Source: Phaeacidiphilus oryzae TH49 (GTDB lineage Bacteria; Actinomycetota; Actinomycetes; Streptomycetales; Streptomycetaceae). Taken from it: 64,000 bases of DNA. Shown piece by piece: positions 6,088 to 44,395 of this stretch; position 1 is the stretch's first letter, and each line of letters opens with the position of its first letter. The notes beneath the pieces are model-generated. The model ran no database searches. It worked only from the letters and a program-made list of their open reading frames with translations, and was not told the DNA's origin. The position numbers were made by a program, and so were the translations under genes. The stretch is from contig NZ_JQMQ01000005.1 in NCBI RefSeq assembly GCF_000744815.1, forward strand, positions 3,914,055-3,978,054. Direction: 5' to 3'.

Positions 6088-7035
6088 GTGAGCGACGCGC
6101 AACCGCCCTTCGGCATGCCCGGCGACCCCTGGGACGCGGGCAGCCCGGAGGACCGCCCGGCCAGGATGGCCGTCGGCGTGATCGGCACCGGCCGGGTCGG
6201 CCCGGCGCTCGGCGCCGCCCTCCAGCAGGCCGGCCACCAGGTGGTGGCCGCCTCCGGGGTGTCCGAGGGCTCCCGCCGCCGGGCCGCGGAGCTGCTGCCC
6301 GGGGTGCGCCTGGTGACGCCGCCTCAGGTGATGGCCGCGGCCGACCTGGTGCTCCTCACGGTCCCCGACGACGTCCTCCCCGAGCTGGCCGCGGGGCTGG
6401 CCGCCACCGGCGCGGTCCGCCCCGGCCAGCTGGTGGCGCACACCTCGGGCGCGCACGGCATCGCGGTGCTCGCCCCGGTCGCCGAGGCCGGCGCGCTGCC
6501 GCTGGCCCTCCACCCGGCGATGACCTTCACCGGCACCACGGTGGACGTGGACCGCCTGGTCAGCTGCCCCTTCGGGGTGACCACGGTGCCGGAGTACCGG
6601 CCCATCGCGGAGGCCCTGGTGGTCGAGATGGGCGGCGACCCGGAGTGGATCCCGGAGTCCGCCCGCCCGCTCTACCACGCCGCTCTCGCGCACGGCTCCA
6701 ACCACCTGACCACCCTGGTGGCCCAGGCCGAGGACCTGCTGCGGGAGGCCGGCGTGGCCGAGCCCGGCCGGATGCTCGGCCCGCTGCTCGGGGCCGCCCT
6801 GGACAACGCCCTGCGCTCCGGCGACCGCGCCCTGACCGGCCCGGTCTCCCGCGGCGACGCGGGGACCGTCCGCGCCCACCTCGCGGAGCTCGCCCGGACC
6901 TCCCCGCAGGCGCTGGACAGCTACCGGGCGATGGCCAGGGCCACCACGGCCCGGGCGCTGTCCAACGGCATCCTCAAGGAGGACGCGGCGGCCCGGCTGC
7001 TGGACGCCCTCGGCGACGAAGGAGACGCATCGTGA
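6088..7035 (+). CDS. Rossmann-fold/DUF2520 oxidoreductase-like protein upstream of panC
   Basis: A 315-residue protein. After a 25-residue leader comes a dinucleotide-binding fold with [25 protein letters not shown] and the Pro-rich middle lead into an all-helical C-terminal DUF2520 domain containing [19 protein letters not shown]. The architecture resembles ketopantoate reductases and 6-phosphogluconate dehydrogenases. The stop overlaps the panC GTG by 4 bp, so it probably serves pantothenate synthesis. A DUF2520-type ketopantoate reductase (PanG) has been described in Francisella, as I recall; that makes this a candidate for the panE role. No panE or panB is visible here. The activity is inference. 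Confidence 0.75.
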
Positions 7036-8066
7036 CCATCGCGACGACCACCACCGCGACCACCGCCCCGGCCGGCACCGCGGCCGCCCCGGCGAGCCTC
7101 CCCGCGACCGGCGCCCCGGCGCTGGTCTCCGGCAAGGCCGAGCTCGCCGCCTGGAGCGCCGTCCACGACATCGTCGGCCGCCGGGCGGTGGTGATGACCA
7201 TGGGCGCCCTCCACGACGGCCACGCCGCCCTGATCCGCTCGGCCCGCGACTGGGCCGGCCCGGACGGCACCGTGCTGGTCACCGTCTTCGTCAACCCGCT
7301 GCAGTTCGGCGCAGGCGAGGACCTGGACCGCTACCCCCGCACCCTCGACGCCGACCTGCTGGTCTGCGCCCGGGAGGGCGCCGACGTGGTCTTCGCCCCC
7401 TCCGCCGAGGAGGTCTACCCCGGCGGGCAGCCGCAGGTCCGGCTCTCCGCCGGCCCGATGGGCGAGCACTACGAGGGCGCCAGCCGGCCCGGCCACTTCG
7501 ACGGGATGCTCACCGTCGTCGCCAAGCTGCTCCACCTGACCGCCCCGGACGCGGCCTTCTTCGGCGAGAAGGACGCCCAGCAGCTGGCCCTGGTCCGGCG
7601 GATGGTGCGGGACCTGAACTTCCCGGTGGAGATCGTCGGCGTGCCGACCGTGCGGGAGGCCGACGGGATGGCCCTGTCCTCGCGCAACGTCTACCTCTCC
7701 GAGGCCGAGCGGGTCTCCGCCCGCGAGCTCTCCCGGGCGCTGTTCGCCGGCCGCGAGGCCGCCCTGGCCGCCGGCCCGCTCGCCGCCGTCCGCGCCGCCC
7801 GCGCGGTGCTCGACGCCGCCGCCCGGGCCGAGCCGCCCGTCGTCCTGGACTACGTCGACCTGGTCGACCCGGCCGGGTTCACCCCGGTGACCTCGGACGC
7901 CTACACCGGCGAGGCGGTGCTCGCGGTCGCCGCCACGGTGGGCGCCACCCGGCTGATCGACAACGTCCGGTTGCGCTTCGACCCGGCCCCGGGGGCGCGG
8001 CCCGCCATCGCCGCCGACGGCGCCCCGGCGTACCGTGTCCGCAGCGAACGGGGGCCGGTCGGGTGA
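7032..8066 (+). CDS. panC: Pantothenate synthetase
   Basis: A 344-residue cytoplasmic enzyme joining pantoate and beta-alanine with ATP to give pantothenate. [13 protein letters not shown] carries the HxGH nucleotide motif. [19 protein letters not shown] binds pantoate, and [10 protein letters not shown] and [11 protein letters not shown] (the KMSKS-like segment) are all present. An unusual Ala/Thr/Pro-rich N-terminal extension of about 35 residues precedes the catalytic domain. The GTG start overlaps the upstream DUF2520 stop. nadB follows after a 74-bp gap, so CoA and NAD precursor genes are linked. Confidence 0.95.
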
Positions 8067-8140
8067 GCGAGCGGCGCCTCGGCGCGACCACCAGGCATCC
8101 GCGTTCGGCCGCGCATGCCGGAACCCGACGGAGCAGGCCC

Positions 8141-9817
8141 ATGGACGCCCAGATCCAGATGGAAGGCCGCCGGCAGGACGCCGGGCAGCCGCACCGCCTC
8201 GCCGCGCCGCCGCCCGGCTGGACGGCCCGTACCGACGTGGTGGTGGTCGGCTCCGGCGTCGCCGGACTGACCGCCGCCCTCCGGGTGCGGGCCGCGGGCC
8301 TGCGGGTCCTGCTGGTCACCAAGGCGCTGCTGGACGACGGCTCGACCCGCTGGGCGCAGGGCGGGGTGGCCGCCGCGCTGGGCGAGGGCGACACCCCTGA
8401 GCAGCACCTCCAGGACACCCTGGTCGCCGGCGCCGGAGTCTGCGTCGAGGACGCCGTTCGGGTGCTGGTCACCGAGGGCCCGGGCGCGGTCCGCCGGCTG
8501 ATCGCCACCGGCGCGGTCTTCGACACCGACGCCTCCGGCGGGATCGACCTGACCCGGGAGGGCGGCCACCACCGCCGCCGGATCGCGCACGCCGCGGACG
8601 CCACCGGCGCCGAGATATCCCGCGCCCTGGTCGCCGCGGTCCACCGGGACCCGGACGTCGAGCTGATCGAGCACGCCCTGGTGCTGGACCTGCTGACGGA
8701 CGCCCGGGGCCGGGCCGCCGGGGTGACCCTCCACGTCATGGGGGAGGGCCTGCGGGACGGCGTGGGCGCCGTCCACGCCCGCGCGGTGGTGCTGGCCACC
8801 GGCGGAATGGGCCAGCTGTACTCCTCCACCACCAACCCGGCGGTCTCCACCGGCGACGGCGTGGCGCTGGCCCTGCGGGCCGGCGCCGAGGTCACCGACC
8901 TGGAGTTCGTCCAGTTCCACCCGACCGTCCTCTGGCTCGGCCCGGACGCCGAGGGCCAGCAGCCGCTGGTCTCCGAGGCGGTCCGCGGCGAGGGCGCGAA
9001 GCTGGTGGACGCGGACGGCGTCCGCTTCATGGTGGGGCGGCACGAGCTGGCCGAGCTGGCCCCCCGGGACATCGTCGCCAAGGGCATCATGCGGCGGATG
9101 CGGGAGACCGGCGCCGAGCACATGTACCTGGACGGCACCGGCTTCGACCGGGAGCTGTGGGAGCGGCACTTCCCCACCATCCTGGCCTCCTGCCGCTCGC
9201 ACGGCATCGACCCGATGACCGAGCCGATCCCGGTCGCCCCGGCGGCCCACTACGCCTCCGGCGGCGTCCGCACCGACCTCCACGGCCGGACCAGCGTGGA
9301 CGGCCTCTACGCCTGCGGGGAGGCCGCCTGCACCGGCGTCCACGGCGCCAACCGGCTGGCCTCCAACTCCCTGCTGGAGGGCCTGGTCTACGCCGAGCGG
9401 ATCGCGGAGGACCTGGCCGAACGGCACCGGTCCGGCCGCCTCCCGCACCGCGAGCCGGTTGGCGACCCGGCCGCCGCCCGCACCGTCCCGCTGCTGGCGC
9501 CGGAGACCAGGGCGGAGGTCCAGCGGTTGATGACCCGGGGCGTCGGCGTGCTGCGGGAGGCCGGCGGAATGGCCGAGGCCGCCGACCGGCTGGCCGAGCT
9601 GCCCCCGGCCGACCTGGCCAAGGGCGAGCCGCCGCAGACCGAGACCTGGGAGGCCACCAACCTCCACCTGGTCGCCACCGCGCTCACCGCCGCCGCCCGG
9701 CTGCGCGAGGAGACCCGCGGCTGCCACTGGCGCGAGGACTTCCCGGACCGGGACGACCGGCGCTGGCGGCGCCATCTGGTCACCCGCCTCACCCCGGACG
9801 GGCTGTCCACCGCCTGA
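8141..9817 (+). CDS. nadB: L-aspartate oxidase
   Basis: A 558-residue FAD flavoenzyme oxidising L-aspartate to iminoaspartate, the first step of de novo NAD synthesis. It shows the FAD fold VVVVGSGVAGLTAALR, then STRWAQGGVAAALG, FVQFHPTVLW, and active-site segments including AAHYASGGVRTDLHG and ACTGVHGANRLASNSLLEG. ATG 8141 has a GGAG seven bases upstream and starts close to the domain. A GTG at 8063 overlapping the panC stop would add 26 residues that look non-coding, so it is less likely. Quinolinate synthase (nadA) is not in the window. nadC follows after 133 bp. Confidence 0.95.
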   Translation: MDAQIQMEGRRQDAGQPHRLAAPPPGWTARTDVVVVGSGVAGLTAALRVRAAGLRVLLVTKALLDDGSTRWAQGGVAAALGEGDTPEQHLQDTLVAGAGVCVEDAVRVLVTEGPGAVRRLIATGAVFDTDASGGIDLTREGGHHRRRIAHAADATGAEISRALVAAVHRDPDVELIEHALVLDLLTDARGRAAGVTLHVMGEGLRDGVGAVHARAVVLATGGMGQLYSSTTNPAVSTGDGVALALRAGAEVTDLEFVQFHPTVLWLGPDAEGQQPLVSEAVRGEGAKLVDADGVRFMVGRHELAELAPRDIVAKGIMRRMRETGAEHMYLDGTGFDRELWERHFPTILASCRSHGIDPMTEPIPVAPAAHYASGGVRTDLHGRTSVDGLYACGEAACTGVHGANRLASNSLLEGLVYAERIAEDLAERHRSGRLPHREPVGDPAAARTVPLLAPETRAEVQRLMTRGVGVLREAGGMAEAADRLAELPPADLAKGEPPQTETWEATNLHLVATALTAAARLREETRGCHWREDFPDRDDRRWRRHLVTRLTPDGLSTA

Positions 9818-17876: not shown

Positions 17877-20408
<2,532 letters not shown>

Positions 20409-20591: not shown

Positions 20592-20930
20592 TCAGGCGTC
20601 GTTGCGGCGGGGGGTGAAGAGGCGGGTGTCGCCTGGGTGGGGGTGGTGGATGTCCAGGGGGCCGGTCGGGGTGGTGGGGGTGAGGGTGAACGTGATGCGG
20701 TGGGTGGTGGCGGTGGCGCGGCGGGCCTCTGCCTCGGCGGTGAGGACCCAGGCCTTGAGGCCGCCCTTGGCGGAGCGGTCCTGGGTGAACTCCACGGCGA
20801 ACTCCATGGTGATCGGGCCGACCTCGAAGCGGAGGGGGGAGTCGCCGGCGGCCTCGGCCGCCGCGGTCAGCTGGTCGCGGACGGCGGCGACGGCTGTGGT
20901 GAGGTCGACGGCGGGGGGCTGCTCGGTCAC
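20592..20930 (-). CDS. Trypco2-type (trypsin-co-occurring) small protein
   Basis: 112 residues matching the Trypsin-co-occurring domain 2 pattern. A helical start (LTTAVAAVRDQLTAAAEAAGDS) is followed by beta strands LRFEVGPITMEFAVEFTQD, GGLKAWVLTAEAEA and ATTHRITFTLTP. The family is known only from association with trypsin-like/NACHT proteins in predicted bacterial conflict systems; its role is unknown. The GTG start overlaps the stop of the NACHT gene (GTGA), so it is the last gene of the same operon. It may be a sensor, adaptor or protease substrate, but none of this is shown. Confidence 0.7.
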   Translation of the reverse strand: MTEQPPAVDLTTAVAAVRDQLTAAAEAAGDSPLRFEVGPITMEFAVEFTQDRSAKGGLKAWVLTAEAEARRATATTHRITFTLTPTTPTGPLDIHHPHPGDTRLFTPRRNDA

Positions 20931-23900
20931 GGGGCGGGTTCCTTCACGCGGTGGGCGAGGGCGCTGATGGCGACGCCCGGCAGGGGGTCGCCGTCCGGGA
21001 CGTGTTCGGCGGGGAGGTCGAGCCGGCGGAGGCCGGGGTAGACCGCGGCCAGCGGGGCCAGGTCGGTGAGGCGGTGGGGGTTGAGCAGGGTCAGCCGCTG
21101 GACCTGGGGCAGTACGGGGGAGCGGGCGATCAGGTCGCCTCGTTCGACGAGCACTTCGAGGTGCCGGAGGCCGGGGAGCCGGGTGAGCGGGAGGCGGTCC
21201 GGGCCGGGCTCGATGGTCTCCCCGGGGAAGCGGAAGCGGCTGAGCCGGCGCTGCCGTTCGAGCCCGCGCAGCAGCGTCCGGGTGAGGGTGGCGGTGCCCA
21301 GGATCAGGTGGTCGAGGCCGGGCGGCAGGCCCTCCAGGGTGGTGGCCTCCTCGGGGAGGGCGTGGTTGAGGTTGAGGAAGCGCAGGCGGGTGAGCTTCGC
21401 CAGGACGTCGAGGCCGGTGACGCTGGTGTCCGCGGGGATCACCAGGCTGCGCAGGGCGCGGAGTTCGGCGAGCGGCCGCAGGTCGGTCCCGCCGCCGCAG
21501 GCGAGGAGGGCCAGCCGGTCCAGGCGCCGCGCCCTCCGCAGCAGGCCGAGGTCGAGCGGGTAGGGGTTGTCGGAGAGGTCCAGGGAGCGCAGGGCCGGGG
21601 TCGGCAGGTCGGCGAGGTCGGCGACCTCGATGCCGCCCTCGACGCGGACCCGTTCCCGACCGCCGAGCGAGGCGAGGAACGCCAGGTCGTCGGCGCAGTC
21701 GACGACGAAGAGCGGGACCGCCCCGGTCTCCGGGTCCGGGCCGCACCAGAGCCGGGCGATGATCTCGCGGGCGTACTGATCCTGGTCGAACTGAGCCCAG
21801 GAGGAGGCCAGTTGGGCACGGACCGCGATCGAGGGGTGCTGGGTGTAGCGGGCCAGCAGATGGATCGCCCGTTCCCGGCCGAGGGTGGTGGCGGTGGTGA
21901 CGACCGCGAGGGCCTGCTCGTCGGTGAGCCCGTCGGGGCCCGGGAGGAGGTCGAGGACGACCGGGCCGCAGCGGGCGAGGTCGCGGGCCTGCTGGGCGTC
22001 CCGGGGCGGGATCAGGGTGGCGGCCGCCCGCTCGACGCGCTCCCGGGTCTCGGGGGCGAGCGCGGTGGCGTGCTCCAGGCAGGCGGCGGCCACCAGATGG
22101 AGGCGATCGCGCAGCTCGGGGGGTTCCTCGGCGGCCCGGCGGAGGAGGCGGTCGAGGAGTTCCGCGCGCTCGTACGGACGGGCGTGGTGGACGGCCATCC
22201 GCAGGACGTCCCGCCACTGGTCGTCGTGGGCGTTGCGGACCAGCAGGCCGAGGTCGGCGTTGTCGATCAGGGACTGCGAGCCCAGGTAGTCCTGGAAGGT
22301 GCGGTGGACGAAGTCCACGCTGTCCGAGGTGGGCCGGCGCAGCAGGCCCGAGCGGAGCAGGAGGTGGTCGAGGATCGCGGGCGGCTCGGTGCCGTCCGGC
22401 AGGCGGAGGCTGGGGATCAGGTCGCCGATGATCCGCAGGGCGCGCCCGCTGGACATCTCGGCCTCGCCGTTGGTGATCAGCCAGTGGGCGAGGCGCTGGA
22501 GGAGCAGCGTCTGCTGGTGGAGGGTGAGGTCGAGGCCGCTGGTGACGGGGGTGATGGCCCGCTCGCGGTCGCGGCGGACCAGCAGCATCTCCAGGGCGGC
22601 GGCGTAGAGCTCCATCCGGTCGTCGGGGAGGAAGCCTCGGCGGTCCCGGTCGAGGGCGCACATCAGCGCGCACATCAGGGGGTTGGTGGCCAGCCGGCCG
22701 AGGTCCGGCTTGGCGGCGACGGCGGAGGTGAGGGCGTCGCGCAGGGCGTCGAGTCGGCCGTCGGGGGCGGCCGCCGCGTGCCAGCGGGCGATGAAGCGGG
22801 CGACGTCGGCGCGGCTCATCGGCTGGAGTTCGAGTTCGGTGAACTCCTGGGCGGCGAGCCAGCCTTCGCGGACCGCGGAGGGGCGGGTGGTGACGACGTA
22901 CCGGGCGTACGGGAAGGCGGCGAGGAGGTCGGCGAGCCAGGCGCGGGTGCGCTCGCGGTCGGCCTCCGGGACCTCGTCCACGCCGTCGATCAGCAGCAGC
23001 GCGCGGCCCTCGGTGAGGGCCCCGGTCACCCAGCCGGCCGCCTCGGGCAGCCCGGAGAGCGGTTTGGCCACGGCGCTCAGAAGCTCCTCGGGGGCGGGGA
23101 GTTCGGGCCGCCGGACCAGGGCGCGCAGCCGGAGCATCAGGGGCACGCAGTCGCCCAGGTCGGACAGCGGTTCCGGGAGCCGGCGCCGGGCGGTGGCCAC
23201 GGTCAGCCACTGGAGGAGGGTGGTCTTGCCGGAACCCGCGCTGCCGCGCAGCAGCACCCGGCTCCGCCCGGAGAGCGCCTGCTCGGCGCGGAGGGTGCTG
23301 GCGACCGGGAGGGAGGGGGCCGGATCGGGCTCGGGGTCCGGGCCGACCGGCTCCGGGCTGCGGTCGAGGAGTTCCAGCGACAGGTATCCGGCGTCCAGCG
23401 GCCAGGTCTCCTCGCCGATGCCGATCACGTTCAGCCGGCCGGCCTGGCGGGCGAGGTAGTCGCGGAGGCGGGAGTCGAAGTCCGCCGGGGCGGCGGGGCG
23501 CGGGAGGGGGACGCGGGCCGGGGCGTACCCGTGGCGGCGGCAGGCCGCGGTGAACTCCTCGTCCGCCAGGAGGGGTTCGAGCGGGCCCACCACCAGGCGG
23601 CTGTGCGCCCAGCCCGCCGGGTCCTCGCGGACCACCCCGGCGAGGAGGTCGCCCACCAGGACCGGGGCGCCGGACATCCCGGCCCATGGGGAGGTGCCGG
23701 GGCCGGTGGCGAGGGGAGGATGCTGGTCGCCCTCCAGGACGAGGGTGCCCCGGAGGGCCGAGGACAGGGGCTTGAGCCGGCCGGTGAACTCCTCGGTGTC
23801 GAGCGATCCGCGGGCGTCCCGGCCGACTCGGGGGAAGCCGACGGCCCGGGCCGGCCGGTCCTGGGCGTCCTCGGACCTGGCCCAGCCCTCGAACCGGCAG

Positions 23901-24127
23901 GAGCAGGCGGTCAGCGGCTCCGCGGCGGCCAGCAGGGCGATGTCCGTCCGCTCGTCGTGGACCCGGTGGACCACCCGGCAGGACTGCGGGCCGTTCCCGC
24001 CGGGGACGCTCACCTCGGCGGTGTCCCGGCCGGCCAGCACATGGGCGGCGGTGAGCACCAGTCGCGGGGTGAGGAGGCAGCCGCTCCCCTGCGGCGGGCC
24101 GAGTACGGCGGCGAGGTGCAGATCCAC
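20927..24127 (-). CDS. Trypsin-like protease / NACHT NTPase / leucine-rich repeat protein
   Basis: A 1066-residue STAND protein. A trypsin-like domain (1-205) has an intact triad: His29 in LTAAHVL, Asp62 in TDIALL, Ser152 in AGMSGAPV. The NACHT NTPase has Walker A GSAGSGKTT (Lys301), Walker B LLLIDGVDEVP (Asp381) and VVTTRPSA. A helical region leads to about eight leucine-rich repeats (about 840-1050, for example LRSLDLSDNPY). This is the layout of NLR-like bacterial immune receptors: LRR senses, NACHT oligomerises, protease acts. GTG 24127 has AGAGGA upstream. It lies 36 bp after the AbiEi-like gene and overlaps the Trypco2 gene. No signal peptide is seen; it should act in the cytoplasm. Confidence 0.88.
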   Translation of the reverse strand: MDLHLAAVLGPPQGSGCLLTPRLVLTAAHVLAGRDTAEVSVPGGNGPQSCRVVHRVHDERTDIALLAAAEPLTACSCRFEGWARSEDAQDRPARAVGFPRVGRDARGSLDTEEFTGRLKPLSSALRGTLVLEGDQHPPLATGPGTSPWAGMSGAPVLVGDLLAGVVREDPAGWAHSRLVVGPLEPLLADEEFTAACRRHGYAPARVPLPRPAAPADFDSRLRDYLARQAGRLNVIGIGEETWPLDAGYLSLELLDRSPEPVGPDPEPDPAPSLPVASTLRAEQALSGRSRVLLRGSAGSGKTTLLQWLTVATARRRLPEPLSDLGDCVPLMLRLRALVRRPELPAPEELLSAVAKPLSGLPEAAGWVTGALTEGRALLLIDGVDEVPEADRERTRAWLADLLAAFPYARYVVTTRPSAVREGWLAAQEFTELELQPMSRADVARFIARWHAAAAPDGRLDALRDALTSAVAAKPDLGRLATNPLMCALMCALDRDRRGFLPDDRMELYAAALEMLLVRRDRERAITPVTSGLDLTLHQQTLLLQRLAHWLITNGEAEMSSGRALRIIGDLIPSLRLPDGTEPPAILDHLLLRSGLLRRPTSDSVDFVHRTFQDYLGSQSLIDNADLGLLVRNAHDDQWRDVLRMAVHHARPYERAELLDRLLRRAAEEPPELRDRLHLVAAACLEHATALAPETRERVERAAATLIPPRDAQQARDLARCGPVVLDLLPGPDGLTDEQALAVVTTATTLGRERAIHLLARYTQHPSIAVRAQLASSWAQFDQDQYAREIIARLWCGPDPETGAVPLFVVDCADDLAFLASLGGRERVRVEGGIEVADLADLPTPALRSLDLSDNPYPLDLGLLRRARRLDRLALLACGGGTDLRPLAELRALRSLVIPADTSVTGLDVLAKLTRLRFLNLNHALPEEATTLEGLPPGLDHLILGTATLTRTLLRGLERQRRLSRFRFPGETIEPGPDRLPLTRLPGLRHLEVLVERGDLIARSPVLPQVQRLTLLNPHRLTDLAPLAAVYPGLRRLDLPAEHVPDGDPLPGVAISALAHRVKEPAP

Positions 24128-24163
24128 GCGCTTCCTCTGGTACGGAGGGTGATCGGGGCACCA

Positions 24164-25120
24164 TCATCCAGTCCCGGCAGGGGATTTGGCGAGCGCTTCG
24201 CGGACGCGGGCGGCGCAGCGGCCCGGGGTGAGGGCGTCGTTCCAGTGGAAGCGGAGGACGCGGCCGGCGGCGGGCGGAAGAGTGCGCGGCGCCCCCGGGC
24301 CGTCGACGAGGCCGAGGAGCGGCGGCCGGCCCGGGATCGCCGGCCCCCAGCGGAACGGGACGCGGGCGAGGATCCGCTCTCCGCCGGGCTGCCGCACCGG
24401 ATGGTCGAGGGAGTCGGGTGGGACGCCGCCGAGGACGCAGTCCCAGCGGATCCGGCTCTCCAGCGGCCCGGCCGAGCGGCCGTCGGCGTGGGGCAGCAGC
24501 CGCAGTGCCCGGGTCGCGGGCTCGCTGCGCCGGAAGGCCAGTGCCCGGGCCACGGCACCGAGTTCGGGCGGGCCGACGAGGTGGTGGTGGAGCGCCGAGT
24601 CGAGGAGGGCGAGCGCCTCCGGGGCGTGGAGGCGCAGCAGGAGGTCGGTCAGGGTGCGGACCGGCGAGGTGAGCGGCAGCCGCCCGAGGTGGACGATCTC
24701 GCCGGGCCGGAGGTCGGCCTGATGGACCAGCAACCGGCGGCCCGGCCGGGGGCGTTGGCCGCGCGGCACCACCACGTCCACCCAGGGCAGCCCGCGGGCC
24801 GGCCCGCCGAGTCCGTGGGCGCGGGCGGCGCTGCCGAGGGCGATCGTGCTCCGCGGGCCGCAGCGCAGGTGCGCCGCCCACAGTGCGGCCAGCAGCGGCG
24901 GACCGGTGTCGGCGTATCGCTCGGCGTCGACCAGCAGGACGCCGTACTCGAGCGGTCGCCACTGCCCGCGGCCGACCAGGGCGCGGATCCGGGCGTCGCC
25001 GAGCCCGCACTCCCACGCCTGGCGGCGGAGGAGCACGCCGCCCTGGGTGGCGGCGAGGGTGCGGGTGGCGCGGAGGGCGTCGGTGCCGGGGAGGCGGGCC
25101 GGGGGCGGGGTCGTCGTCAT
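24164..25120 (-). CDS. AbiEi-like/DUF559-like protein, first gene of the NACHT operon
   Basis: 318 residues. The N-terminal part resembles the winged-helix AbiEi-type antitoxin domain of actinobacteria (GGVLLRRQAWECGLGDARIRALVGRGQWRPLEYGVLLV, in pieces), then the usual ALGSAARAHGL core. The C-terminus resembles the DUF559/Vsr-like nuclease fold (ends LRFHWNDALTPGRCAARVREAL). The acidic residues expected in the RVDF and EVDG strands are replaced (VPF, LVDG), so it is probably not an active nuclease. It precedes the trypsin-NACHT-LRR gene by 36 bp on the same strand. It may regulate the operon or take part in defence; this is inference. Confidence 0.65.
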   Translation of the reverse strand: MTTTPPPARLPGTDALRATRTLAATQGGVLLRRQAWECGLGDARIRALVGRGQWRPLEYGVLLVDAERYADTGPPLLAALWAAHLRCGPRSTIALGSAARAHGLGGPARGLPWVDVVVPRGQRPRPGRRLLVHQADLRPGEIVHLGRLPLTSPVRTLTDLLLRLHAPEALALLDSALHHHLVGPPELGAVARALAFRRSEPATRALRLLPHADGRSAGPLESRIRWDCVLGGVPPDSLDHPVRQPGGERILARVPFRWGPAIPGRPPLLGLVDGPGAPRTLPPAAGRVLRFHWNDALTPGRCAARVREALAKSPAGTG

Positions 25121-25216
25121 GGCGGCAGCATGCCCGGCGGGGGGCCGAGTCCGCTGAACAGCCTGTGGATAACCGGTCCGACAACCCGACTTATCGAGAG
25201 CGGAGTTGACGCCCTA

Positions 25217-25838
25217 TCACTCGGACGGGGGCTGCCGGCCCGGCGGCGGGCCGATGGTGGCGGCCTCCGGGCCCAGTGCCCTCACATAGCGGGGGTGGGT
25301 CTGTGCCCAGCGCTGCCCGGGCCGGAAATCCGGCTTCCGGCCGTCGAGCGCGCAGCCGAGGTAGTCCAGGCACTCGTGCCAGCCGGCCGCGTTGCGGGCG
25401 CCGGTGCCGTGCTGCTCCAGGGTGTCGAGGAGGGTGAGGACGCTGGCGTCGGCGCCGTCCGCGGCCAGTTCGAGGCGGATGGTGTCGGTGCCCCAGGAGA
25501 ACTCCACCAGGGTCTCCGGCTCGAAGGCGAGGACCTCCCCGGTGAAGGCCGGGCCGCGGCCCTGCGGATCGCGGAAGGTGATCTCGGCGCCGGTCCGCCA
25601 GATGCCGGCGGGGTCGCCGTCGAGCCCTTCGATCCGCTGCGGGAACCACGCCGCGAGCTGCTCGGGGTCGGTGAGGGCGCGCCAGACGGCGTGCTGCGGG
25701 TGGCCGAGCCGGCGGGTGAAGCGGAGGCGGAAGGCGGTCCCGTCCGTCTCCAGGGTGCCGAGGTCGGCGCCGGCGGGGGTGGTCGGCGGGGGCGCCGGTG
25801 GGGGTGCCCGCGGCGGTGTCGGCGGGGGTGTCGGTCAT
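25217..25838 (-). pseudogene. SRPBCC (AHSA1-like) protein gene with an apparent frameshift
   Basis: The main frame, read down to TGA at 25217, encodes a clear SRPBCC/AHSA1 domain (FRLRFTRRLGHPQHAVWRAL, TDPEQLAAWFP, EPETLVEFSWG). That frame opens at a stop (25835-25837) and has no ATG or GTG before 25507, deep inside the domain. The natural start, ATG 25838, lies 5 bp after the arsR stop but in another frame (MTDTPADTAAGTPTGAP...). The frames would join if one G were removed from a G-run at 25775-25779 or 25788-25792. This is a mutation, a sequencing error, or slippage. Such proteins usually pair with ArsR regulators. Confidence 0.7.
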
Positions 25839-25843
25839 GTCGC

Positions 25844-26200
25844 TCAGGTCCGTTCGTCGCCTGCTTGGCTGTCGAGATGGGCTTCGAGGCGGTCCAGGCT
25901 GCTGCCCCAGGAGGCCCGGTACGGCGCCAGCCAGTCGTCCAGTTCCCGCAGCGGGGCCGGGTCCTGGGCCAGGCGGTAGTACCGCCGCTGGCGGTCCGTG
26001 CGGACGTCGACCAGCCGGGCCTCGCGCAGCACCCGCAGATGCTTGGAGACCGAGGGTTGGCTGACCCGCAGGGCGTCGGCCAGTTCGCCCACCGAGCGTT
26101 CGCCGTCCCGGACCAGCTCGAGTATCCGGCGGCGGCGGGGCTCGGCGAGCACCTCGAAGATCGAGGACGCCGGGAAGGTGGTCGTCACGCAGACAAGCAT
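25844..26200 (-). CDS. ArsR/SmtB-family repressor
   Basis: 118 residues with one winged helix: FEVLAEPRRRRILELVRDGERSVGELADAL, recognition helix SQPSVSKHLRVLREARLVDV, and wing RTDRQRRYYRL. The metal-binding ELCVCDL box of ArsR is absent, so it belongs to the metal-independent group that usually sits next to SRPBCC genes, as here (5-bp gap). ATG 26200 lies inside a near-perfect 36-bp palindrome, pointing to autoregulation. GTG 26188 is an alternative start. Confidence 0.85.
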   Translation of the reverse strand: MLVCVTTTFPASSIFEVLAEPRRRRILELVRDGERSVGELADALRVSQPSVSKHLRVLREARLVDVRTDRQRRYYRLAQDPAPLRELDDWLAPYRASWGSSLDRLEAHLDSQAGDERT

Positions 26201-26232
26201 GCCTTGACAGTTATATAACCGTCAAGGCATGC
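26197..26232. promoter_or_regulatory. 36-bp near-perfect palindrome over the arsR start
   Basis: The sequence is its own reverse complement at all but one symmetric pair (26209/26220). The arms read GCATGCCTTGAC and the AT-rich centre GTTATATAAC. On the minus strand TATAAC lies 9 bp before the arsR ATG and can serve as the -10 box. A dimeric repressor bound here would block the promoter and start codon together. Confidence 0.7.
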
Positions 26233-38879: not shown

Positions 38880-40352
38880 ATGGAGACGTACTACTACTTC
38901 CTCAGCTACACCCGCCGACATCAGGACGGGTATGTGGCGAGGTTCCACGCCGACCTGTCGGATCGGCTCGCCGACCGGCTGCGGTTACCGGACCCGCACC
39001 GGGTCGGCTTCCGCGACGTCCACGAGATCCACGCCGGGATGAGGTGGCGGGAGGAACTGGAACAGGCGCTCCGCTCCTGCCGCTGCTTCGTCCCGCTCTA
39101 CTCCGCCGAGTACTTCGACAGCGCCTACTGCGGGCGGGAGTGGGCGGTCTTCCTGCGGCGGCTGCGCACCTACGAGGCACTGGAGAACATCCGGCCCAAC
39201 CTGGTGGTCCCGGTGCTGTGGCGGCCGGTGCCGGAGATCCCCCGCGCGGTCGAGGGGATCCAGTACGTCGACGACGGCTTCCCGGTGCTCTACCGCGAGC
39301 GCGGAATGGAGTACCTGGTCCGCCGCGCCCGGGCGACGGACGTCTACGAGGCGGCGCTCGAGCGCATCGCCGACCGGATCGTGGCCGAGTGCGGCCGCCA
39401 TCTGCTGCCGCCCTGCGAGCCCTTCTCCATCGAGCAGGTCACCGGCACCTTCGGCGAGCTGGTGCTGCGGAACGGTTCCGCGGCGGCCGGATCCGGGGCG
39501 TCCGGCGGAACGGGCGGAGCCGTGGCCGAGACCGGGCGGCGCGGCCATGTGACCTTCCTGCTGGCCGCGGCGACCCGCGGCAACCCGCCCCCGGGCCACC
39601 CCGACCCGGACCCCGAGCACGCCGGACCTGCGTCCTGCTACGGATCCGATCCGCTGGACTGGAACCCGTACAGCCACGGGCGGGCGCGGCCGGACGAGCC
39701 GGCTCCGGAGGCGCCCGCGGAACACGGCAGGGCGCACGGGCAGCCGCACGAGCCCCCCCTCTCCACCCACGCCCAGCAGGTGGTCTCCGGCAACCGCTTC
39801 TCCAGCGCCGTCGACGTGGTCGACGAGTGGCTGGTCGACCGGGTGGCCAAGGCCCGCCGCAACCACCAGGTGGTGGTCGTCCTGGTGGACCCCTGGTCGG
39901 CGCGGATGGCCGAGTACGGCGACGCCCTGCGCGGTCTCGACGCCAGGCTGGAGCCGGCCAGCGGCGTGCTGCTGCCCGCCCACGGCGACCCGGAGGAGGC
40001 CCCCCACGAGGCCGAGAAGCTCTCCGTGGACATCGGCGAGACCTTCCCCAACAACCTGGCCCTGCCGGTCAACCCGCGCTTCCAGTACGCGGTTCCGCGC
40101 GAGCACTTCGGGCGGCGGCTGATGGAGATGGTGGCCGCCGCGCAGAGCGCGCTGGCCCGGCTCGCCAACCCCCGCGCCGACCTGCGCGGTTCCGTGCCCC
40201 CGCCGTTCCGGCCGGAGCGGCCGCCCGGCGCCCTCCCCGCCACCCCGGGGGCCGGCCCCGGCTGCGCCGCCGACCGCCCGCACCGCCGCGGTGGCCGCAG
40301 GACCCGCGGAGCCGGGGCCGAACCGCCCGCCCTCCCAGGGGAGTTCCTATGA
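38880..40352 (+). CDS. fxsC: TIR-like protein FxsC
   Basis: 490 residues. The N-terminal TIR-like domain (about 1-140) has YYFLSYTRRH, FRDVHEIHAG, SCRCFVPLYSAEYF and YCGREW with Glu87 at the position of the TIR NADase glutamate. A Gly/Ala linker leads to the FxsC C-terminal domain (about 220-420) with HVTFLLAAATRGN, DWNPYSH, VVVVLVDPWSARM and PREHFGRRLMEM. The tail is Pro/Arg-rich. FxsC belongs to the FxSxx-COOH system, a predicted peptide-modification or signalling system of actinobacteria. ATG 38880 has GGGGGAGGGAGAGG upstream; the stop overlaps the fxsT start (ATGA). Confidence 0.8.
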   Translation: METYYYFLSYTRRHQDGYVARFHADLSDRLADRLRLPDPHRVGFRDVHEIHAGMRWREELEQALRSCRCFVPLYSAEYFDSAYCGREWAVFLRRLRTYEALENIRPNLVVPVLWRPVPEIPRAVEGIQYVDDGFPVLYRERGMEYLVRRARATDVYEAALERIADRIVAECGRHLLPPCEPFSIEQVTGTFGELVLRNGSAAAGSGASGGTGGAVAETGRRGHVTFLLAAATRGNPPPGHPDPDPEHAGPASCYGSDPLDWNPYSHGRARPDEPAPEAPAEHGRAHGQPHEPPLSTHAQQVVSGNRFSSAVDVVDEWLVDRVAKARRNHQVVVVLVDPWSARMAEYGDALRGLDARLEPASGVLLPAHGDPEEAPHEAEKLSVDIGETFPNNLALPVNPRFQYAVPREHFGRRLMEMVAAAQSALARLANPRADLRGSVPPPFRPERPPGALPATPGAGPGCAADRPHRRGGRRTRGAGAEPPALPGEFL

Positions 40353-43300
40353 CCGCCCGCCCGGGGACCGTCGTCACCTTCTACTCGTTCAAGGGCGGCA
40401 CCGGCCGCACCATGGCGGTGGCCAACATCGGCTGGCTGCTGGCCGCCCGCGGGTACCGGGTGGCGGTGGTCGACTGGGACCTGGAGGCGCCCGGGCTGCA
40501 CCGCTACTTCCACCCGCTGCTCGACGACCCCGAACTGGTCTCCACCTGGGGCGTATTGGACCTGCTGCGGGACTACGTCGCGGCGGCCCTCGCCCTGGAC
40601 AGCCCCGTCCAGCGGGCCGCCGGGCGCGGGCCGGGCGGGCTGGGCGGCCGGGACCGGGTGGCGGCCTGGGTGCGGGACTACCTGGACGACCGCTTCGGCG
40701 ACTACGGCGCCGCGGTGCGCTTCGACTTCGGCTCCGGCACCGGCTCCGGGCACGGCACCGGCCCTGGCTCGGGCAGCCTCGACCTGCTGCCGGCCGGGCT
40801 GCAGGACGACACCTATCCGACCGCGGTCAACACCTTCGACTGGTTCAGCTTCCAGGACGCCCTGGCCGGCGGCCTGCTGCTGGACGCCCTGCGCGAACGG
40901 CTGCGCGCCGACTACGACTTCACCCTGATCGACAGCCGCACCGGCTGGAACGACTCCTCCGGGGCCTGCCTGGTGGTGCTGCCGGACACGGTCGTCGACT
41001 GCTTCAGCCTGAACACCCAGTCCATAGCCGGCGCCGAGCAGGCCGCCCGGGCGGTGCGGGAGCGGTCGGTGGGCCGCCGCATCCAGGTGCTGCCGGCCGC
41101 GCTCCGGGTCGAGGACGCCGAGCAGCGCAAGGTGGAGGCCGGACGCGACCTCGCCCGGGCGCTCTTCGCCCCCCACCTCGCGTCGATGTCCGCCGAGGAG
41201 ACCGACCGGTACTGGGCCGACATGGAGGTCCCGTACAAGCCCTTCTACGCCTACGAGGAGATCCCCGCCGTCGTCGGCGACCGGCCGCTGCTGGAGAACA
41301 GCCTGCTCGCCGCGTACGCCAGGATGGCCGACCGGATCGCCGGGTCCAGGGCGCCGGGCGGGCCGCCGCAGCTGCCCGAGCGGCAGCGCCGCGAACTCCT
41401 GGCCCGCTACGAGCGGTTGCCGGTCTCCCAGCCCTCGGCCGCCCTGATCAGCTACGCGGCCCCGGACCGGCTGTGGGCGGAGTGGATCCGCCGGCAGTTG
41501 CACCTCCTCGGCTTCCGGCCCCGACTCGCCCCGGCAGGACGGGCGTTGCCGCCGCCGGAGGCCGCGGTCGAGGGCGGCCCGGCACCGGCCGCGCCGCTGG
41601 TGCTCACCCTCCTCAGCGCCGCCCACCCGGGCCCGGACGGCCCGGACGGCGCGGACGGCCCGGATCGGCCGGACCGCCGGGACAGGCCGCGCGCGGCCGT
41701 GCCGGAACGGCGGGCGGTGGTGCGGATCGGCGACGTCCCGGTGCCGCGGGCGCTGGAGGGCGCGCCGCTGGTCGACATGGTGGGCCTGGCCGGCCCGGAG
41801 GAGGCCAGGGACGCCCTGGTCGCCGGGGTCGGCCGGCCGGTACGCCCGGAGCGGGGCCAGCGCTCCGAGGAGCCCGCCGGCTGGTCCAGGACCGCCCGCT
41901 ACCCCGGCTCCGTGCCGGCGGTGTGGCGGGTGCCCACCCGGAACCCCGGGTTCACCGGCCGGGAGGAGCTGCTGGACCGGATCCGCACGGCCCTGGCCGG
42001 CGGCTCCGAGCCGGGCGGCGCGGCCCCGTGCGTGCTGTGCGGCCTCGGCGGGGTCGGCAAGACCCAGGCCGCCCTGGAGTACGCCCACCGGTTCCGCGCC
42101 GACTACGACGCGGTGTGGTGGGTGTCGGCCGAGGACACCGGGCTGCTCGCGCACCATCTCGCCGGGCTCGGCGGCGACCTGGGGCTGCCCGCGGACGGCG
42201 ACGTGGGCGCGCTCGCCGGTGCGGTCCGCGAGGCGCTCCGCCGCGGCGAGCCGTACCGCCGCTGGCTGCTCATCCTGGACAACGCCGAGCAGCCGGGACT
42301 GATCGCCCCCTATCTGCCGGCCGGCGGCGGCCACGTCCTGATCACCTCGCGGGACCGGGCGGACTGGGACGCCGCCGCCCGGATCGACGTCGACGTCTTC
42401 TCCCGCGAGGAGAGCACCGGCATGCTCCGCCGGGAGAACCCGGAGCTCTCCGAGTACGACGCCGCCCGGATCGCCAAGGAGCTCGGCGACCTGCCGCTGG
42501 CCGTCCGGCACGCGGCCGCCTGGCTGCGCAACACCGGCGAGTCCGCCGACACCTACCTGGACAAGCTCGACGTCCAGGTGGGCGGGATGGCGGTCAGCGA
42601 CCCGGAGGGCAGCGAGGACCGGTCGATGGCCGCGGCCTGGCTGCTCACCTGGAACCGGATCGGCGAGGAGATGCCGGCGGCCGGCGAACTCCTGCTGCTG
42701 CTGGCCTTCCTGGGGCCGGACCCGGTGCCCGCCTGGCTGGCCCGCTCGGACCGGATGCGGCAGCGGCTGCTCCGCTACGACCCGCAGCTCGGCGAGCCCG
42801 ACATGGTCGGCAAGGTCTTCCGCGAGATCAGCAAGTACGAGGGCGTCCGGATGGACGGGCTGGGCGGCGGCATCACCATGCACCGGCTGGTGCAGGCGGT
42901 GCTGCGCCGGCAGGTCGAGCCGGAGCGCTGGCCGGAGTTCCGGGCGGCGGTGCACGGGGTGCTCGCCGCCGCCAATCCGCGCAACCCCGACCAGCCCGGC
43001 ACCTGGGTCCGCTACTCGGCGCTGCTGCCCCACCTGTGGCCGACCCGCGCCGAGCGCAGCGCCGACCCGGAGGTGCGGCAGTGGATCGCGGACACCGTCC
43101 GCTACCTGTGGCGGCGCGGGGACCACCGGGCGGTGCGGGACGCCGCCGAGCGGATCCTCGCCGAGTGGCAGCCGCGCTTCGGCCCCGACGACCGGCTGGT
43201 GCTGATGATCCGCAACCAGCTGGCCAACGCCCTGCGGGCGGGCGGCGAACTGGAGGAGGCCCACCGGATCGACGCCGACGTCCTCCGCCGCTGCCGGGAC

Positions 43301-44395
43301 ACCCTCGGCGAGCACCACCTGGACACCCTCACCGCGGCCGGCAGCCTGGCCGCCTCGCTCCGCGCGGCCGGCCGCTACGGCGAGGCCCGGCACTTCGACC
43401 GGAGCGCCTTCGACACCAGCCGGGAGGTCTTCGGCGAGGACCACCCCCGCACCCTGATGCTGGCCAGCAATCTCGCGCTGTCCCGCTTCCTCCTCGGCGA
43501 GTACTACAGCGCCCGGGACCTCGACCGGGAGACCAGGGACCGGATGGTCGCGGTCTTCGGCGCCGACCACCCCTCCACCCTCCTGTCCGCCCGCAACTAC
43601 GCCCGCGACCTCCACGAGACGGGGGAGGCGGAGGCCGCCGTCCGGCTCCTCCAGACCACCCTGCGGGCCTTCCGGTCCGGCCTGGGCGAGTCCCACGACG
43701 ACACCCTGCGGACGGCGAAGGTGCTGGCCACGGCGCTGCGCAAGACCGGGCGGTACGAGAGCTCGGAGGCGCTCAGCCGGGAGACCCTGGCCCAGTACCG
43801 GGCGGTCCGCGGCGAGCACCATCCGGAGACCCTGGCCTGCGCCTGCAACCTGGCCTGCGACCTGGCCGCGCTCGGCCACCCGCGGGAGGCCCGCGCGCTG
43901 GCCCGGGAGACCGCGGCGGCCTGCGCCGGCACCACCGGCCGGGACCATCCGCTGACCCGCGGCTGCATCACCAACCTCGCCGTCTACCAGCGGCTGTGCG
44001 GGGAGCCGGAGGCGGCGGCCCGGCTGACCGCGGAGCTCCTCCCCGGCTACCGCGCCGAGCTCGGCGGCAACCATCCGATCACGCTGGCCTGCGCGGTGGA
44101 CCATGCCGCGAACCTCGCCGAGTCCGGGGCCGGCGAGGAGGCGGTGGCGCTCGGCCGGGAGGCGCTGGACGGCTATCTGGCGACCCTCGGCGAGGGGCAT
44201 CCGGCGGCGGTGGTCTGCGCCTGGAACCTGGCCCTCGACCTGGAGGCGGCGGGCCGCACCGACGAGGCCCGGGAGCTCCGGCACGCGACGGAGGGGTCGG
44301 CGCTGCGCGCCTTCGGCGTCGGGCACCCGCTGGTCTCGGAGGTGATGAGCAGCGGACGCCGGCTGCACGCGGACATCGAGCCGCCGCTGATCTGA
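40349..44395 (+). CDS. fxsT: FxSxx-COOH system tetratricopeptide repeat protein FxsT
   Basis: 1348 residues. (1) ParA/MinD-like ATPase (1-320) with KGGTGRT (Lys15, Arg20 where Lys is usual), DWDLEAPG and [11 protein letters not shown]. (2) A degenerate TIR-like domain (about 365-490: [18 protein letters not shown]). (3) NB-ARC-type STAND NTPase with Walker A GLGGVGKT (565-572), Walker [10 protein letters not shown] and HVLITSRD. (4) Eight to nine 42-residue TPRs (about 965-1340) with the G-x-x-HP-x-T signature of kinesin-light-chain-type repeats. The start overlaps fxsC by 4 bp. The architecture is that of an NLR-like receptor. No FxsA peptide or radical-SAM FxsB is adjacent. Confidence 0.82.

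Follow-up and report, generated by a model that had tools for sequence, protein, structure and literature searches.

Bacterial proteins that carry a NACHT domain and leucine-rich repeats (LRRs) in one chain are already known, and bNACHT proteins with LRRs have been called bona fide bacterial nucleotide-binding leucine-rich-repeat receptors (NLRs) (PMC12169576). The association of trypsin with Trypco2 is also known: the family was named for trypsin-like peptidases of the VMAP ternary systems (Kaur 2020, PMC7159879), and in the literature searched it figures as a partner of bacterial trypsins for which no function has been tested. There are also precedents for proteolysis in comparable systems: in the STAND system Avs1, a trypsin-like protease cuts its partner upon infection (PMC12799240), and lysis by LypABC requires the trypsin-like serine (PMC13236601). 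Here we analyzed a stretch of 64,000 nucleotides (hereafter the window) from the 7.8-Mb genome of Phaeacidiphilus oryzae TH49 (contig NZ_JQMQ01000005.1, positions 3,914,055 to 3,978,054), in which a gene for a trypsin-NACHT-LRR protein (the receptor) precedes a gene for Trypco2. We propose, with a probability of roughly 0.66, that these two genes constitute a module in which an NLR-type receptor would fire its protease on oligomerization, with Trypco2 as its dedicated partner and phage as the trigger, and that the module occupies a slot at the 3' end of the presumed clpC gene where effectors are exchanged. What carries this proposal, and was observed directly by computation, is the architecture of the receptor, its intact catalytic and ATPase residues, the link between Trypco2 and trypsin, the clpC site, the exchange of effectors and the fast divergence of the LRRs.

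With its central NACHT domain, N-terminal effector and C-terminal sensor, the receptor resembles the bNACHT proteins; however, those described in the text consulted bear SNaCT, or nuclease and NCH1 domains, whereas the receptor bears trypsin and LRRs (PMC12169576). The VMAP ternary systems, in turn, have a core of VMAP with vWA and MoxR components, whereas the core here is a NACHT-LRR receptor (PMC7159879). None of VMAP, vWA and MoxR was found among the Pfam matches of the part of the window that was scanned, that is, the receptor, Trypco2, AbiEi-like, AHSA1, ArsR and AurF-like genes and the Clp side. A preliminary description of this DNA, made from the sequence alone, held that Trypco2 is known only from contexts such as the present one, which is too narrow given its origin in VMAP systems. 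A trypsin-like protease fused to a defense protein is a feature shared with AVAST type 1 and Lamassu, and the protease part of the receptor matches LmuA (E 4.5e-8) and Avs1b (E 4.3e-5). Unlike in AVAST type 1, however, no MBL nuclease partner was seen beside the receptor, which has Trypco2 instead. Membership in AVAST type 1, LmuA or EruA was considered and rejected, because the matches are partial and the NCBIfam ones far below cut-off (15.2 bits for the full-length Avs1b model, against a cut-off of 1500); the upstream gene is AbiEi-like, not Avs1a. The animal receptors NLRC4, NLRP3 and NOD2 share the succession of NACHT, helical part and LRR and gave the best structural matches, but their protease is recruited whereas that of the receptor is built in; no death-fold domain was found in the receptor by Pfam, and homology over the whole chain is not claimed. 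LypABC of Caulobacter (CARD-NLR) likewise combines a trypsin-like peptidase with an NLR-like ATPase, but it consists of three proteins with a CARD-like domain, TPR-like repeats and an ATPase of a distinct clade, and the term 'trypco' is absent from the main text of its description (PMC13236601). In the literature searched, we found neither trypsin and Trypco2 on a NACHT-LRR core, nor an exchange with NNH1, nor a clpC slot, and nothing that, judged by its title, concerns NACHT receptors with clpC in Streptomyces was returned; the primary survey of bNACHT proteins (Kibby 2023) lies outside that scope and may include a trypsin-LRR member.

The preliminary description reported three minus-strand genes, the first two separated by 36 bp and the last two overlapping by 4 bp, and these distances are exact; in the order of transcription the genes encode the AbiEi-like protein, the receptor and Trypco2 (Table 1). 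The NACHT and Trypsin_2 matches of the receptor both lie above the Pfam cut-offs. The C-terminal LRRs were confirmed by an LRR_4 match slightly below cut-off (25.6 vs 27 bits), by internalin matches (E 0.001 and weaker) and by repeats in the predicted structure, so that the protein has the sequence features of a bacterial NLR, namely NACHT with Walker A and B and a C-terminal LRR. The catalytic triad (His29, Asp62 and Ser152), which had been described as intact, and the Walker residues (Lys301, D381, D384 and E385) do not vary among the 26 trypsin receptors aligned. This alignment consists of the window and 25 of 30 trypsin-receptor frames, leaving out four short ones and L166 (L numbers denote fetched loci and G numbers genomes of the family set), and eight of its rows come from loci without Trypco2 in cis (L138-L141, L144, L147, L203 and L215). 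An AlphaFold2 model built on the trypsin-receptor alignment (mean predicted local distance difference test score, pLDDT, 80.9; predicted template modeling score, pTM, 0.61) showed the order protease, NACHT, long helical part and LRRs. We take the helical region to be the counterpart of WHD/HD2. The best matches to this model in the PDB by Foldseek were NLRC4 (E 4.6e-22), NOD2 and NLRP3. When the entries of Foldseek's own list were re-aligned with VIA-align, which is not an independent search, residues 212-1066 gave Z-scores of 28.5 for NLRP3, 28.1 for NLRC4 and 26.3 for NOD2, with large root-mean-square deviations (rmsd) of 10.8 to 17.9 Å. Residues 215-730 fitted the crystal structure of the NLRP3 NACHT at 3.6 Å across 413 residues, residues 1-205 matched the V8 and Deg proteases (Z about 17-18, rmsd about 2.7-3.0 Å), and residues 804-1066 matched SDS22 (Z 17.4). 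These matches, together with the adjacency and co-occurrence of Trypco2 described below, support the earlier idea that an NLR-like receptor has a protease as its effector and Trypco2 as its partner.

The last gene was correctly recognized as Trypco2: it scored 100.1 bits against a cut-off of 24.2, and it adjoins a trypsin-like peptidase with an intact triad. A search for co-occurrence of the three families had been suggested, and we carried it out in 200 Streptomycetaceae genomes, where Trypco2 was found to track the trypsin receptor and the AbiEi-like gene was not. At most three receptor candidates were scored per genome, so that the counts are lower bounds; at E<=1e-60 there were at least 145 receptor matches in at least 96 of the 200 genomes. 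The places of Trypco2 and of clpC are the first 150 listed of each, those of clpC covering 150 genomes. Sixty-two of the 145 matches start in the trypsin part and 81 beyond it; the two intermediate ones were excluded from the trypsin comparison. Of the 62 trypsin receptors, 57 have a Trypco2 gene no more than 1.4 kb away on the same strand (55 among the listed places plus G001 and G089, found by a fuller search; 54 under a 700-bp rule), and the genomes of the other five have it elsewhere. Among the listed places it stands beside two of the 81 non-trypsin receptors, whichever rule is applied, and each of the two forms a tandem with a trypsin receptor; unlisted Trypco2 genes could still adjoin some of the 81. 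Trypco2 was present somewhere in the genome in 53/53 genomes with a trypsin receptor and in 73/147 others (Fisher 1.3e-13, a value that ignores kinship). A second, named set comprised 80 of 489 loci with 88 NACHT units, and here Trypco2 accompanied 19 of 36 trypsin units and none of 52 others; a Trypco2 hidden Markov model run over the whole loci gave 18/35 trypsin loci and 0/45 others. Trypco2 is upstream of the receptor in 51 of 54 receptor-adjacent places. The window has the opposite order, which we at one point considered unique and then rejected as such, because this minority order is common to L160, L161, L165 and L168; the Trypco2 sequences of the window and of L168 group together (bootstrap 96; Shimodaira-Hasegawa-like approximate likelihood ratio test, SH-aLRT, 95), the window row being a long branch. 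The predicted Trypco2 structure is weak (mean pLDDT 68.5, pTM 0.35), no PDB match reached E 0.001, and nothing was drawn from the fold. To see how general the link is, we drew an evenly spaced sample of 20 from the 80 listed Trypco2 places that are near neither such a receptor nor a listed clpC. Reading of the six-frame table by eye revealed a trypsin-like neighbor on the same strand in 15 and on the opposite strand in three, whereas a script counted 19/20, including the marginal L227; gene calls came from a home-made caller that misses genes. No Trypco2 match was found at E<=0.001 in 50,697 phage records. Relatives of the receptor (E<=1e-30) occurred in 14 of 72,556 plasmid records, none spanning 80% of the query; a Streptomyces jietaisiensis plasmid (NZ_CP108340.1, 53638-56061) matched receptor residues 7-793, which are the trypsin and NACHT part. 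In L136 (G150), three genes stand in a row: one for a trypsin-NACHT-LRR protein, one listed as Trypco2, and another (1439 aa) that combines trypsin with a weak NACHT and TPR.

Next, we compared the N-terminal effectors on related NACHT cores. The 88 named units comprised 36 with trypsin, 41 with NNH1 (PF22733, E 1.8e-36 to 8.1e-56 in three tested proteins) and 11 others, and the 42 units adjacent to clpC carried trypsin in 12 cases and NNH1 in 30. A tree of the NACHT cores (89 rows including the window) required five changes between trypsin and NNH1, and its starred branches alone force four changes by the NNH1 label and five by the trypsin label. The cleanest case of exchange is that of two sister receptors, both adjacent to clpC: the one in Wenjunlia tyrosinilytica has trypsin and Trypco2, and the one in W. 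vitaminophila has NNH1 and no Trypco2. Three or four of four independent pairs agree in effector and Trypco2, and none is opposed. The sensor end diverges much faster than the core. The median identities over 21 receptor pairs (core identity >72%, >=180 aligned LRR columns; not independent, as sequences recur among the pairs) were 0.82 for the core, 0.78 for trypsin and 0.48 for the LRR. In L140 and L144, the cores are 93% and the LRRs 52% identical. The synonymous divergence (dS) of this pair is also higher in the LRR (0.57 vs 0.17-0.33), and module replacement is therefore as likely as diversifying selection. L148 and L149 had seemed to show an even stronger swap of the LRR, but this pair was set aside, since neither protein reaches the LRR; like L142 and L157, they are solitary trypsin-NACHT proteins that stop just short of it (852-875 aa).

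The 3' end of the operon faces a Clp ATPase gene tail to tail, a neighbor on which the preliminary description was silent. Its product matches Clp ATPase models, all below their own cut-offs, and we take it to be ClpC. In the family set, 41 of the 145 receptors lacked a listed clpC and were excluded, and 59 of the remaining 104 are no farther than 20 kb from clpC, every one of them downstream of it and convergent with it (39 trypsin, 19 non-trypsin and one intermediate). The other 45 lie away from clpC, 18 farther on the same contig and 27 on another contig, where the draft state of the genomes may hide closeness. A clpC-near receptor was found in 53 of the 150 genomes with a listed clpC. In the named set, 61 NACHT units could be assessed and 27 could not; 42 of the 61 have a convergent clpC within 9 kb. 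On the NACHT-core tree, the clpC label changes nine times. Shared or vertical descent explains the linkage in part.

For the mode of action, we infer oligomerization, protease activation, a phage trigger, cell death and a role of Trypco2. The LRR end would sense the trigger, most likely a molecule made or disturbed by phage, upon which the NACHT ATPase would oligomerize; the clustered N-terminal proteases would then be switched on and cleave a target, and growth arrest or cell death would follow. By analogy with related families, from which both trigger and outcome are taken, the module probably serves phage defense. Trypco2 would be the dedicated partner of the trypsin effector, a brake or holdase being slightly favored over a substrate or cofactor, and streptomycetes would keep NLRs in the chromosomal slot at the 3' end of clpC, exchanging the effector and diversifying the LRR. 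Trypco2 can outlive the receptor, and the reverse, a trypsin receptor in a genome lacking Trypco2, was seen once (L215); this pattern suits a brake better than it suits a cofactor or substrate. Our preference is weak, since Avs1 and Hachiman provide a direct precedent for the substrate model (PMC12799240). A bolder version would make the slot comparable to a resistance-gene locus, in which one NACHT core lineage stays while its effector is exchanged and its LRR sensor diversifies, with Trypco2 as a dedicated trypsin brake that also acts in trans, such that a trypsin receptor is tolerated only with Trypco2 in the cell; this version is tentative, and we lean against it.

Several observations weigh against the proposed two-gene module. 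Trypco2 is missing in cis from 17 of the 35 named trypsin loci: 15 are solitary receptors of one clade (Streptomyces netropsis, S. hiroshimensis, S. cinnamoneus and kin, and one record under the name Streptosporangium nondiastaticum) whose fetched flanks show no clpC, and two are the tandem copies L203 and L215. Several of six inspected loci of this clade lie near genes that are presumably alanine-racemase-like. Trypco2 is present elsewhere in all 15 genomes and in that of L203; however, G232, which holds L215, has a trypsin receptor with an intact triad and no Trypco2 match genome-wide. Conversely, an open Trypco2 gene stands 0.2-3.2 kb from clpC in eight fetched loci (L118-L125) that have no intact receptor beside it, and L122 retains receptor debris. 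Pairwise ratios of nonsynonymous to synonymous divergence (dN/dS) among these eight genes were 0.12-0.80 (28 pairs), values that hint at constraint. A ninth locus, L126, has a clpC-side trypsin-NACHT receptor broken into frames at about 6227-8243, with Trypco2 still in front. Two of the 20 sampled Trypco2 places have no convincing trypsin neighbor (L227, marginal and antisense, and L234). The Fisher value disregards kinship, the four independent pairs are too few to reach significance, and the NACHT-core tree is a quick one with SH-aLRT values only, no bootstraps, and long-branch warnings for L159_1, L192_1 and the window. In addition, four named relatives lack the LRR, as mentioned above, no defense-island or mobile context was shown for the locus, and a fixed chromosomal site would also suit a housekeeping or developmental regulator.

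We also considered whether all three genes form one system, as the preliminary description proposed, with the AbiEi-like protein as a regulator of the receptor or as a protease-activated nuclease. The gene is on the same strand 36 bp from the receptor, with which it may be co-transcribed in the window genome, and nuclease-protease pairs exist in other defense systems (PMC12799240). The AbiEi assignment itself, the weakest of the three genes' family assignments, was clear in PADLOC (E 4.4e-16) but not in Pfam, where AbiEi_4 stayed below cut-off (E 0.017), and the degenerate DUF559 tail attributed to the protein was not recovered, with no DUF559 match at E<=1. Against a three-gene system, homologues (E<=1e-10) occur in 12 of the 200 Streptomycetaceae genomes, and none of the 11 besides the window genome places the gene beside a related receptor. 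In G002, G018 and G045 its position is directly 3' of an aurF-like gene, at a distance of about 90 bp, and 6.5-7.6 kb with four or five called genes separate it from Trypco2; in the other eight it is not near a related receptor. It is absent from all 80 named receptor loci (E<=1e-5; flanks of up to 6 kb, some shortened by contig ends), and no AbiEii toxin partner (PF08843) was matched in the window genome at E<=0.001. Because of this distribution and position, we rule the gene out as a component and read its place by the receptor as neighborhood, and a three-gene system seems to us very improbable.

An alternative within the two-gene module is that Trypco2 is a substrate, that is, a pro-effector or relay cleaved by the activated protease in the way that Avs1b cleaves the Avs1a pro-nuclease. 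Partner cleavage has been shown for Hachiman and Avs1, and in Avs1, Hachiman and Lamassu a separate partner gene is typically immediately upstream of the protease-fused gene (PMC12799240), a position that Trypco2 likewise occupies in most receptor-adjacent places. On the other hand, Trypco2 is small, its weak model matches no solved fold, and the dN/dS values of the eight clpC-side genes that stay open without an intact receptor are odd for a useless or toxic leftover; we regard a substrate role as rather unlikely. It could also be that the module is a developmental or stress-triggered switch for cell death or proteolysis, possibly tied to ClpC, and not a phage defense. This would suit the fixed place by clpC in more than a third of the genomes with a listed clpC, and LypABC, an NLR-like protease system, serves the release of a gene transfer agent (PMC13236601). 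However, the patchy presence, the exchange of effectors, the decay and the rapid divergence of the LRR are reminiscent of immune genes, and convergent neighbors share no promoter; we think such a switch improbable. As for the site, the link to clpC may reflect a tolerant site or shared descent and be uninformative on function, which would be compatible with the defense module. Genomes without such a receptor carry other genes at the 3' site of clpC, but the orientation was the same in every clpC-near receptor and the clpC label changes repeatedly on the NACHT tree, and we see this question as evenly balanced.

In streptomycetes, related NACHT cores at the same site with either trypsin and Trypco2, or NNH1 without Trypco2, amount to a natural control experiment, and the role of Trypco2 is therefore directly testable with sister genes. 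A fixed and easily located slot beside clpC would allow a systematic survey and testing of streptomycete NLRs, similar to plant resistance loci, and its receptors would offer simple bacterial models for animal-like NACHT-helical-LRR receptors.

Table 1. Features of the receptor locus (positions within the window)
Feature	Position	Strand	Remarks
Trypco2 gene	20592..20930	-	112 aa; GTG start overlapping receptor stop by 4 bp; PF19631 E 8.1e-29, residues 8-85
Trypsin-NACHT-LRR receptor gene	20927..24127	-	1066 aa; Pfam domains and AlphaFold2 model
Trypsin-like protease domain, residues 1-182	23582..24127	-	Trypsin_2 E 3.7e-9, residues 14-157
Catalytic His29 codon	24041..24043	-	invariant 26/26
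Catalytic Asp62 codon	23942..23944	-	invariant 26/26
Catalytic Ser152 codon	23672..23674	-	invariant 26/26
NACHT domain, residues 290-452	22772..23260	-	PF05729 E 1.3e-26
Walker A GSAGSGKT, residues 295-302	23222..23245	-	K301 invariant 26/26
Walker B region ALLLIDGVDE, residues 376-385	22973..23002	-	D381, D384, E385 invariant 26/26
Helical region after NACHT, residues 461-800	21728..22747	-	secondary structure of model
Leucine-rich repeats, fast-evolving, residues 806-1040	21008..21712	-	LRR_4 E 1.4e-5; strand-helix pattern in model
AbiEi-like gene, judged not part of the system	24164..25120	-	318 aa; neighbor only
Presumed clpC, landmark, not a component	17877..20408	+	Clp ATPase match; receptors sit at its 3' end

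Other features of the window were noted in passing. Upstream of the AbiEi-like gene, a frame with an AHSA1 domain (25217-25838, minus strand; Pfam E 1.3e-13) has no ATG, GTG or TTG start before 25507, and the ATG at 25838 opens a different frame, which indicates a frameshift, an unusual start or a sequence error. Two mechanical open frames span the operon, at 20951-26218 (plus strand, 1755 aa) and 20592-25184 (minus strand, 1530 aa); they were not taken as genes, because they are an effect of the G+C content of about 76%. Finally, at 38880-44395 on the plus strand, an FxsC TIR-like gene overlaps by 4 bp the next gene, which encodes a KGGVGR ATPase/FxSxx-COOH TPR protein, and this pair represents a separate NTPase-TPR system within the same window.

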